Assembly: GCA_029204225.1 (NCBI GenBank)
Contig: CM055100.1
Location: forward strand, 15,734,600-15,798,599
DNA from: Diphasiastrum complanatum
Taxonomy: Eukaryota; Streptophyta; Lycopodiopsida; Lycopodiales; Lycopodiaceae
Reading direction: 5' to 3'
DNA: 64,000 nucleotides
Made by a program: the position numbers and the translations under genes. Below are positions 43,526 through 49,500 of this stretch, one piece after another (the stretch's first letter is position 1; the number at the start of each line of letters is the position of its first letter). Below the pieces are notes generated by a model. The model saw nothing but the letters and a program-made list of their open reading frames with translations. It had not been told where the DNA came from and made no database searches.

Positions 43526-46500
43526 GTTGCAAATGCAGCACATGAGCTTGTTTCAGAATTTTATGCAGTGGATTGCTTGGTTGCTTGCAATATACGCCGG
43601 GTGCTAAAGGCTTTTGCAAATGCACGTGTTGGAACACATGTACGTTTCCAAGTTCAACTTGTCTCCATGAAAGAATGTCTACCAAGTTTTTTAGTTTCTG
43701 AGCATATTTTTTTAGAAATTACATTCAGATTATTTTTCTCTTTAAACCTAAAAACATTAACCCATACGTTCTCAATGGTATGAAAGTTTGGAAACCTAAA
43801 TCACTACATCTACCCCCTCCAGATCGCTACATTCCATATGCTGTGATCGCACCTTCTCCTCCCCATCCTTCCCCTCGTTCTACTTTTGATCCTCCTAACT
43901 TTTTGCCCCCTAGTAATGTTTTATGTAGAACATTTGCTTATAGAGATTACGTAAGGAGATTACTTTATTTGGATTATGTTATGTCTTTGGGTAAGTTCTC
44001 CCTTGATATGTTTAATAGATACAATCCTAAGAACCTTGTTCATTTGCTCTATACTTTTGAAAACATGCCTCGTCAAGATCTTGGTATTTCAGCAAACCTA
44101 TGACTTCACGACACTACACTAAAATCAATTTGGAAGATTTGAAGTTTCGTGTTAATAAGCTAATTCAAGATGTTTCTAGCAAAAAACTAAGGACACTCAA
44201 TGCAAAACTTTGAAAGTTGAAAAGAGTGCTTTGCATTTTGAGTTTATTGACTTAAGAACAAAAATCAAGATGTTGATTCAAGAAGATTCACTAAAATTGT
44301 CCTGTATTTAGTAGACGATGGGTAACCAGAGGCAAACACTTCCATGGAGATAGTCATTTTGCACATTATCCTATTTCTCATCTATGAAGTTTTATGTACT
44401 TTGAACCGCAGGCAGATCGTGCTTCAATCGTCTGTGTGAGTTAATTATAAAATGTTCATGCCAAAAATCCTCCGACTTTATGTCTGCTAGTTAGGTAGCA
44501 ACGTGTGCATGTATCCATAACATTCCAGAATGTTTTCAGACTGTGTACTTTTTATTTTGTTAAAACTTTCTTAGATTTGTTAAAATTCTAGCTTGAATCC
44601 CTTATTGGTTTGTATGATTTTGAGTTTGTTCAAGTCCTTCTCGATTCTGTTGAAGATTCTAGCTCGAATCTCCTATTGATTTAAGCAATTCATAAGTACA
44701 AAACTGTAGTGAACATAGTTGTACTAGCATATCTTGAATTTTCTATTCCTATGCCAGTGTTATCCAATTAACAACTGCTGGGAGCATCCTATATGTAGCA
44801 CTTTGGGAGTACTACGGGCTATGGACACAATGATGCAGGTGGTCGAGAAGCACTTGACAAAGCCTTTGCAGAAATAGCTGGTGCCGAAGCTGCAATTTTC
44901 CGCCCACAGGTTGGAATCCTTATCTGATACTTGGACAAGCATAGTCAGTCCATGATAACAAGATAATCTCAGAGTTAAAACCATCTTATTTTGGTGGGAG
45001 TAAGGGAATTATTGTGGCAAATGTCAGATTCTCTCCATTGTAACAAATAAATACAGAAAGCCGAAAATTATGGATAGTTGTTTTGGTGTTTGCAAAAGGC
45101 CTCCTCAAGGTCATGGTGATTTATGCTCCTAGTACTAAGAGTACCAATAGCCTTTGTTCCTTTCCATTTTTTAATCATGTTTCTGATCTCCCAGTTTTTT
45201 TCAGGAACCCATGCCATTGCATGTGCTCTATTCTCTGTTTTACGACCTTCCGGGGAGGTATGTTGACTGCCTGTGTTTGGAATGTCAAGGGAGCGAATTA
45301 GCACATGCTGGTTCGGCTGTGTGAATCAAGCTTCCCCTGTGCCAGTTGTGTCTTTTGAAGTTGTAGTGTTTCACCTAGGTCCTGTATGCATGCTGGTGCT
45401 AAAGCCTTGTATAGTTAAGACATAATACTGAATGTGAAATATTTCGGCGTGGACTTAGCAAGGTATTTGTAATTTGTGTTAGCTGCTATCAGTTGTTGGT
45501 GCTCCATATGAAACTCTCGAAGAGGTCATTGGATTGCGTGGAGCAGCTGGCCAGGGATCTTTGAAGGAGTTTGGTGTATCTTATCGGGAAGTTCCGGTAT
45601 GCATTGATCATTACCTACCTTTCTAACATGTTTGACATATAATGCTGTGCCATGTTCCCATGACCGTGACCTACAACAGTAGAGCAGCCAAAATTCAAAA
45701 TACCATCCATTACATTATAATACTTCATCTTATGAAATACCATCCCTATTGGCTTAGTATGTCTGTCAAGTGCTGCAAGCCTACAACTTGTAACCACCAT
45801 CAAATCCATACTCATTATTCAAAATGCTTAGCTTCCTGGTGGTAACAATAATTGCTGTTTTAAAGGCCGTCATATGATTTGCTCATCAATAACCTCAAGA
45901 TTGGGTCAAGAAGCCCAATGACAGTATATTCTTCAACTCATACAATTAGTTTAAATGACTATCTAATCCAAACATTTTTTAATGGTAAACATAAGCTGGT
46001 TTGACATTGACTTTTTCTGTTACACTAAGATGTGGTATAGGCGAAGGCATGCTGAACACTTGATTAATTACATGTAAACTACTACTCTTCTTGTGGTTAT
46101 CAATTTGCGTCATTTTCCAACTGACACCAGCCTGATTATTCCACCTGCAATGGTTCCCGGATAACAAGTTTTGCAAATTAACAATCTGCAGTGCAACAGC
46201 ATAAGCTCTCCTCCATGCCTTGATGAAATTTTAGGTTTGAAACTCTTTTGTGTTAGTCTCTTTTTTGGTGAGAAGTGCTTTAGTCTTGAAGTTGACTTTT
46301 ACTGTACTCTGGTTACAAGAGTTCACATTTATGAGTTATTCTTCAGGAAGTCCTTACAGTGGCAAGTATATTGCATGTGTTTGTGGAAGGCAAATTTTAT
46401 ATGCAAGTAGATCAGCGTTTTGACTCTTCGGTGGAGTTGCCACAATATACAGTACTGTCTGCTAGAATGTCCCAGAGTTCACTGATACTTGGACAAGCAT

Positions 46501-49500
46501 AGTCAGTCCATGATAACAAGATAATCTCAGAGTTAAAACCATCTTATTTTGGTGGGAGTAAGGGAATTATTGTGGCAAATGTCAGATTCTCTCCATTGTA
46601 ACAAATAAATACAGAAAGCCGAAAATTATGGATAGTTGTTTTGGTGTTTGCAAAAGGCCTCCTCAAGGTCATGGTGATTTATGCTCCTAGTACTAAGAGT
46701 ACCAATAGCCTTTGTTCCTTTCCATTTTTTAATCATGTTTCTGATCTCCCAGTTTTTTTCAGGAACCCATGCCATTGCATGTGCTCTATTCTCTGTTTTA
46801 CGACCTTCCGGGGAGGTATGTTGACTGCCTGTGTTTGGAATGTCAAGGGAGCGAATTAGCACATGCTGGTTCGGCTGTGTGAATCAAGCTTCCCCTGTGC
46901 CAGTTGTGTCTTTTGAAGTTGTAGTGTTTCACCTAGGTCCTGTATGCATGCTGGTGCTAAAGCCTTGTATAGTTAAGACATAATACTGAATGTGAAATAT
47001 TTCGGCGTGGACTTAGCAAGGTATTTGTAATTTGTGTTAGCTGCTATCAGTTGTTGGTGCTCCATATGAAACTCTCGAAGAGGTCATTGGATTGCGTGGA
47101 GCAGCTGGCCAGGGATCTTTGAAGGAGTTTGGTGTATCTTATCGGGAAGTTCCGGTATGCATTGATCATTACCTACCTTTCTAACATGTTTGACATATAA
47201 TGCTGTGCCATGTTCCCATGACCGTGACCTACAACAGTAGAGCAGCCAAAATTCAAAATACCATCCATTACATTATAATACTTCATCTTATGAAATACCA
47301 TCCCTATTGGCTTAGTATGTCTGTCAAGTGCTGCAAGCCTACAACTTGTAACCACCATCAAATCCATACTCATTATTCAAAATGCTTAGCTTCCTGGTGG
47401 TAACAATAATTGCTGTTTTAAAGGCCGTCATATGATTTGCTCATCAATAACCTCAAGATTGGGTCAAGAAGCCCAATGACAGTATATTCTTCAACTCATA
47501 CAATTAGTTTAAATGACTATCTAATCCAAACATTTTTTAATGGTAAACATAAGCTGGTTTGACATTGACTTTTTCTGTTACACTAAGATGTGGTATAGGC
47601 GAAGGCATGCTGAACACTTGATTAATTACATGTAAACTACTACTCTTCTTGTGGTTATCAATTTGCGTCATTTTCCAACTGACACCAGCCTGATTATTCC
47701 ACCTGCAATGGTTCCCGGATAACAAGTTTTGCAAATTAACAATCTGCAGTGCAACAGCATAAGCTCTCCTCCATGCCTTGATGAAATTTTAGGTTTGAAA
47801 CTCTTTTGTGTTAGTCTCTTTTTTGGTGAGAAGTGCTTTAGTCTTGAAGTTGACTTTTACTGTACTCTGGTTACAAGAGTTCACATTTATGAGTTATTCT
47901 TCAGGAAGTCCTTACAGTGGCAAGTATATTGCATGTGTTTGTGGAAGGCAAATTTTATATGCAAGTAGATCAGCGTTTTGACTCTTCGGTGGAGTTGCCA
48001 CAATATACAGTACTGTCTGCTAGAATGTCCCAGAGTTCACATTTGTGGAGACTATCATCAAGTTATCGTACTTTGTGTTGTACTTTGCTATTCAATCAAT
48101 ATAGCTAGGTCCTATTGTGAACGCATCTGTGCACTTTAATATTGCATGATCTGAGTGCGAAGTACATCTTCATAGATCAGCTACATAACTGGCTAAACAG
48201 TAAATTGCGCTTTTGTTCAGTCCTGGAGATCTCTATTCTGCTCTTTTCTATGGAGTCCAGCGACCCACCGCGACCACTATCTGGAGCATTGTGAATCTTT
48301 TCCAAATATGACTCGTGAGCAGCCCCAACATGTCAGATTGCAGCATCTTATACATGCTTCTGCAGATTTAGCTACAGCTTGTTTTTGTAATTGCACCAGC
48401 CTTGCTCTCATACTTGTCCAATGTTAACATCTAGTTGAGATAACTAAAGTCTCTCTTTTTGCTCCCTATTCTGCTTCTTCACTTGTATGCTAGCTCAGAG
48501 AACAGAAACCTATGCGAAAATCGGCGCACCTGTTAATAGAGGACATTCAGAAAATTGCATACAGCTATGCCAAGTTTGCTTGTTCCAGAATATACTTCAG
48601 AAAATTTTCATTTCTAACTATAAGAAGAAAGTAAAACTTATCCACTTTTTTAGAGTTTATCACATTTACCACCGCTGTATAAGATGTCGCTTGTGAGCTG
48701 CAATTCTTTGTTGACCTAAGAAATGCAGAAGTCACACTATAAACCCGTTCAGAGTGTCCCACTATAAACCTCAGGCCTCTTTACCCTTTAGAATCATTGT
48801 TCCTGTTGCAAAAACATGCTTATTGAGATTTATTGGGAGCAAAGTTCCAGGTGCCGTGGTACGGCACCTGGTATGGCACGGGTGCTGTGGGTGTCGTACA
48901 GGTCAGTTCCACAGCACCCACGGCACCTGTTTTTTTTTTTTTTTTTATATATATATTTTTTAAGTCATTTTTTAGTGAAAAAAACAAAACAAAAAAAAAA
49001 ACACCTGTGCCGTGGGGAACTTTGATTGGGAGGTACAGCAACTGAATGTAGTCATATCGTTATCATTAGCTGTTCATCCTTAAAGATCAGTGAGCATAGA
49101 TAGCAATGACGTACTTGTTGAAGAGGTTTCAAGATATACAAAGAAGGTATGAGGTCAGTGTAAAGATAGAATTGTCAGTGTCTTTGCTAATAGAACGTTC
49201 TCTATGTTCTGTACTAATACACGTGAGGATTGATGAAGGATTAAAGTGGAGAATCATAAAAATAACAAATAGCTATCTCTATTTGGGAGGTCAAGCTTCA
49301 AAACAAACATAAGTGGTCCCTGACAGATGTGGTAGCCAACTAATGTTCAGAACTAATTTATTACAGATTTCTTTTCATCATAGACTTCTGCAAAGCAAGG
49401 GGGCTTCCTACAAGATTGTGCTTTTTGTTTCAGTACACTTTGGTAGATTTGAGCTTCCAAATGTTTTTATTCATAGATGATTTTGGAATAAATTCTGTTG

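Follow-up and report, generated by a model that had tools for sequence, protein, structure and literature searches.

The locus and its host gene

We analysed a window of 64,000 nucleotides on chromosome 9 of the Diphasiastrum complanatum assembly (C9:15734600-15798599; positions given without a prefix are those of the window), in which a segment of 1558 bp stands twice, head to tail, inside a gene of the PF06838 family. The gene is the public model O6H91_09G023700 of D. complanatum, and its protein of 517 amino acids is called P0001 here. Based on tblastn with P0001, the gene starts at 37279 and continues beyond the window to about 73345 in window coordinates. The 11 exons found in the window give, when spliced, 424 residues which are identical to the start of P0001. 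All 11 have lengths divisible by three, so the reading frame is kept at no cost. A scan of the window past 38000 for short C-terminal motifs of the family gave no match; tblastn later placed the exons of the C-terminal part past the window. The exons of the gene within the window are:

37279..37434, plus strand: exon 1 of the PF06838 gene, with the start codon and an N-terminal extension (tblastn with P0001; splicing)
43526..43639, plus strand: exon 2 (spliced model)
44799..44909, plus strand: exon 3, which ends in AAIFRPQ (spliced model)
45195..45257, plus strand: exon B, copy 1 (FFSGTHAIACALFSVLRPSGE; spliced model)
45483..45596, plus strand: exon C, copy 1 (LLSVVGAPY to SYREVP; spliced model)
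46753..46815, plus strand: exon B, copy 2 (spliced model)
47041..47154, plus strand: exon C, copy 2 (spliced model)
49543..49692, plus strand: exon after the repeat (LSLEGG to RVIQ; spliced model)
49921..49998, plus strand: following exon (AQNPCC to PTAV; spliced model)
50204..50425, plus strand: exon with the conserved Lys (GSLIKNPGG), which is invariant in an alignment of 55 sequences
56923..57009, plus strand: last exon inside the window (GGMLLS to DVIQ), beyond the end of the contig C2124 described below

The tandem repeat

Direct comparison within the window shows that 44924-46481 and 46482-48039 are identical in 1558 of 1558 bases and lie head to tail. The run of identity is 1559 bp long, which leaves an overlap of one base (C) at the junction 46481/46482. 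Both breakpoints are intronic. The parts of the repeat are:

44924..46481, plus strand: copy 1 of the 1558-bp unit (part of an intron, exon B, an intron, exon C and part of an intron), identical to copy 2, with a single match in the other version of the locus (C2124:48888-50445)
46482..48039, plus strand: copy 2 of the unit, recognised by its identity to copy 1
46481..46482, no strand: internal junction with the 1-bp (C) overlap, missing from C2124

Exon B (63 nt) and exon C (114 nt) have AG/GT borders and phase 0 in both copies, and the splice sites are identical between the copies. At the protein level, residues 128-186 and 187-245 of P0001 form an exact repeat of 59 residues, and the frame stays open. 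A first-pass annotation made from the sequence had described the perfect duplication, its one-base overlap, the two phase-0 exons and the 59-residue repeat, and all of these were reproduced.

The exact repeats of 294 kb of C9, including the window, were scanned after exclusion of simple repeats and of 100-base words with more than 6 copies. No other exact direct repeat found there exceeds 110 bp at a spacing of up to 30 kb, and the pair is therefore far beyond chance. Neither the window nor the 294 kb contains a single N, so there is no scaffold gap at the junction. The unit with 500 bp of each flank has no further match in the window at an expectation value (E) of 1e-3. An 11-mer in opposite orientation (E 0.007) is taken as chance.

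A second version of the locus

A search of the assembly, in which the best candidates were scored, places the unit at three sites: the two on C9 and one on C2124, an unplaced contig of 54,224 bp. This contig tracks the window over positions -2236 to 51817, apart from a region at about 35984-38260 where the two differ in structure. It crosses both outer boundaries of the repeat without a break and with one copy of the unit. The eight distinct exons up to 50425 are each found in it exactly once; the contig stops short of the exon at 56923. Two public proteins come from a contig of 54,224 bp. P0002 (O6H91_Y274000) equals P0001 minus one copy of the repeat over 336 residues and then runs into intron sequence. 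P0121 (O6H91_Y273900), a GDSL lipase (PF00657), matches window positions 20634-22407 in 387 of 387 residues. It follows, judging from size and content, that C2124 is the contig of both proteins.

Around and in the unit, C9 and C2124 differ at 16 of 11,960 bp (about 0.13%), of which 9 fall in the 6,624 bp to the left (38300-44923), one in the 1,558 bp of the unit and 6 in the 3,778 bp to the right; three differences at the block edge (38176, 38177 and 38185) and one 1-bp gap are excluded from this count. The nearest differences outside the unit lie 528 bp to the left and 290 bp to the right. The 8312-bp aligned block which ends with the unit is free of gaps. Larger differences are found elsewhere: three arrays differ in length (CT: 104 bp in C9 vs 88 bp in C2124; CA: 30 vs 52; GA: 32 vs 38), two indels measure 17 bp (poly-C) and 18 bp, and C2124 alone contains a segment of 1487 bp, at about window position 35984 (C2124:38282-39768). 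The positions in the window are:

45689, plus strand: sole site at which the unit differs from C2124, which has A; C9 has C both here and at 47247
32069-32202: CT/CA array whose length differs between the versions (C9 vs C2124)
37245-37277: GA array whose length differs between the versions (C9 vs C2124)

Because of the divergence of about 0.13%, the other microsatellite lengths and the 1.49-kb indel, C2124 looks like a genuine second allele, as far as the two sequences can tell. The 1487-bp segment is a second kilobase-scale difference within 54 kb, and has diverged relatives (67-76%) in the 294 kb of C9. Mismatches between the versions are frequent at 24-36 kb, where 52 of the 80 mismatches of the main alignment lie; the CT/CA array contains eight of these 52.

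Family membership and relatives

P0001 matches PF06838 (Met_gamma_lyase, YnbB-like) with 605.5 bits in two stretches, and the spliced protein with a single copy of the repeat reaches 409 bits; the curated cut-off is 24.2. The protein has the fold of the pyridoxal phosphate (PLP) enzymes of fold-type I. Of the 237 PF06838 proteins listed, 55 were aligned, and K332 (IKNPGG) and S189-H192 (SGTH) are invariant among them, as are the residues of SGTH, PYxT and IKxPG. We take the conserved Lys and SGTH to be cofactor ligands, as in other fold-type I enzymes.

The 237 proteins are made up of 120 from one search and 117 new ones from a second, the best 120 of each being considered. The SGTHx[IL]-type motif occurs twice in P0001 only, once in 234 of these proteins and nowhere in the remaining two (P0263 and P0299). 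P0010 has an additional plain SGTH in its N-terminal region, with no repeat. Since only P0001 among the 237 listed has the doubled motif, the single copy is read as ancestral and the duplication as derived. In the second of these searches the junction served as the query, and none of the best 120 proteins listed has a doubled motif; P0001 itself was too long to be a candidate there.

All listed hits other than P0001 and P0002 show at most 73% identity. Among the land-plant proteins of the family (PF06838/YnbB-like, named ‘aluminium resistance’), P0003 of Physcomitrium and P0004 of Marchantia are 70% identical and alike over the whole length. Bacterial relatives with solved structures (3jzl, 3hvy and 3ht4) are matched by sequence. 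The difference from these known proteins is the repeated 59 residues, as none of the other 236 listed carries the motif twice. Many of the named prokaryotic relatives among the matches listed come from cyanobacteria, as would be expected if the plant gene derived from the plastid.

Predicted effect on the protein

In the AlphaFold model of P0001, copy 2 takes the native place, and copy 1 (129-183) has a predicted local distance difference test score (pLDDT) below 50. The invariant alignment columns fall at 189-242, where copy 2 stands; since it is this copy with which the relatives are aligned, the model's preference for it may reflect the alignment. The first-pass annotation had expected the repeat to disturb folding unless one copy is skipped. 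This is plausible, on the basis of the predicted model.

Origin of the duplication

The observations point to a recent heterozygous intragenic tandem duplication which arose by end joining and probably damages the enzyme of that allele; we regard this as the likely reading, held with some reserve. It is placed on one of two alleles because the other assembled version has one copy. One haplotype of D. complanatum would have gained the 1558-bp duplication in its YnbB/PF06838 gene, and the haplotype of C2124 would keep the ancestral single copy. The duplication would then be real DNA, formed by end joining or by a slip of replication repair, in view of the 1-bp overlap of the breakpoints and of flanks in which no repeat was detected. 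By default, splicing would take in both exon pairs and give the annotated protein of 517 amino acids, with a surplus and probably unfolded insert of 59 residues beside the cofactor-binding region. Such a protein is likely to be impaired, and the intact allele may cover for the duplicated one. The locus is most likely to represent a young mutation which is not yet fixed, rather than a new kind of gene.

A very recent unequal crossover or end-joining event had been suggested at first. A recent duplication is the best supported part of that suggestion and end joining fits, but an unequal crossover between flanking repeats was rejected: the overlap at the breakpoints is a single base pair, and a search with the unit and its 500-bp flanks found nothing else in the window at E 1e-3.

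The perfect identity of the copies is unsurprising at an allele divergence of 0.13%. For a duplication younger than the split of the haplotypes, at most about 2.1 differences are expected between the copies. Copies without any difference have a probability of 0.12 if the duplication dates from the split itself, and of 0.42 as the mean over younger ages, provided that the clock is constant, the age is uniformly distributed and the differences counted are genuine.

Several points weigh against a heterozygous duplication. The analysis covered assembled sequence, in which a misassembly within one haplotype would likewise yield a perfect repeat. Of the 48 gaps in the main alignment, 40 fall in the first 2.2 kb of C2124 (C2124:1-2200), which points to poor polishing there and to a contig of uneven quality, and C2124 stops 3.8 kb past the repeat. 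Transitions account for only 6 of the 16 differences around the unit and for 45 of 80 in the main alignment; errors in single bases may therefore explain some of the differences between the versions. Should the A in the unit of C2124 be such an error, the sole informative site in the unit is mute.

Alternative explanations

An assembly artefact was among the possibilities raised by the first-pass annotation. The kind which survives best is a false duplication within one haplotype (homotype), in which the assembly would have placed 1558 bp twice, as an unmerged overlap closed without Ns, and the plant would be single-copy on both haplotypes. We consider this unlikely, although it is the most serious competitor. 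The perfect identity, the arbitrary-looking breakpoints with their 1-bp overlap, the presence of a single-copy version in the same assembly and the likely damaging effect all agree with it. False exon gain inside a gene is also a named class of error (PMC9516828). However, C9 and C2124 show differences to the left and to the right of the repeat, and another kilobase-scale difference between the versions lies nearby.

It is improbable, in our estimate, that a segregating allele encodes a PLP enzyme of 517 residues in which the cofactor-binding segment is doubled, or that it uses the exon pairs singly. In both cases the exon duplication would be seen at its very start, with the copies not yet diverged and the ancestral allele beside them.

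The duplication could also be present on both haplotypes and be collapsed in C2124 near the contig end. The end of the contig 3.8 kb past the repeat and the poorly polished left end would suit a collapse, but the contig shows a single difference in the unit and a gap-free block of 8312 bp ending with it, and each of the eight distinct exons up to 50425 occurs in it exactly once; we regard a collapse as very unlikely.

A working exon pair is likewise very unlikely, whether as incipient alternative or mutually exclusive exons or as a tolerated repeat that selection maintains. The frame is kept, the splice sites are intact and the public model uses both copies. Frame keeping is, however, automatic in a gene whose 11 window exons are all multiples of three in length, and the in-frame fit was rejected as a sign of selection on this ground. 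The copies are identical, with 0 differences in 1558 bp, where mutually exclusive exons would be diverged; the C2124 version has no repeat, nor have the other 236 listed relatives, and the predicted model leaves one copy without a confident structure. For regulated alternative exons, as proposed in the first reading of the sequence, there is no evidence: the splice sites are identical, the copies undiverged, and no second isoform of the chromosome-9 gene is among the hits listed.

Artefacts which mix haplotypes are the least credible of all. In a heterotype false duplication or a haplotype-switch join, copies 1 and 2 would come from different haplotypes, yet both have C at the sole informative site, where C2124 has A (thin evidence, as it is one site), and a switch at the repeat should leave one flank matching C2124 perfectly, yet both flanks differ; such an artefact is therefore hardly tenable. 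Gaps between the copies, given as a primary characteristic of false duplications in PMC9516828, are absent here, with no N in the window or in the 294 kb.

Comparison with known systems

The exons are adjacent and homologous, lie in one gene and share one frame, as in a tandem exon duplication. The cases described in PMC9013439 and PMC9741552 are likewise neighbouring exons, head to tail and in frame within one gene. Unlike those, the copies here are identical, they belong to one of two versions of the locus, and exclusive splicing is without evidence. Among exclusive tandem-exon events in humans, the majority are described as ancient (PMC9741552).

In a poplar, 645 duplications were called between haplotypes (PMC7539514). 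The heterozygous tandem duplications presented there are likewise young structural variants seen as a difference in copy number between assembled haplotypes; the putative D. complanatum duplication is distinct in that it hits coding exons. With false exon gain, as described in PMC9516828, the locus shares an exon-bearing segment placed twice in one gene model, but here the copies adjoin without a gap, and nothing points to a mixture of haplotypes. A literature search gave no paper on the present duplication, judged by titles and the starts of abstracts. The duplication is ordinary in kind, and its value lies in the ancestral and derived alleles standing side by side.

Other features of the window

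A perfect (GA) array of 187.5 units occupies 63112-63486. A cluster of repeats is found at 26225-36591; these are 68-96% alike, both direct and inverted, and include arms of 309 nt at 94%. Open frames at 3144-5006, 7763-8092, 10256-11908 (minus strand) and 14114-15526 resemble, by eye from their translations, pieces of Gypsy- and Copia-type retrotransposons. Chromosome 9 is 67,477,060 bp long in the source of P0001 vs 67,473,394 bp for C9, perhaps as two versions of the chromosome; both sources show the repeat, one as protein and the other as DNA.

Significance

If the repeat is an artefact, the public model O6H91_09G023700 is 59 residues too long. Whether it is real or not, the chromosome-9 model needs a check before it is taken as the normal enzyme of the species. 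If the repeat is real, it would be a newborn in-frame exon duplication with the ancestral allele in the same plant. It would allow us to ask how splicing treats two identical exon pairs, and whether the free-living haploid gametophytes of D. complanatum tolerate the allele.

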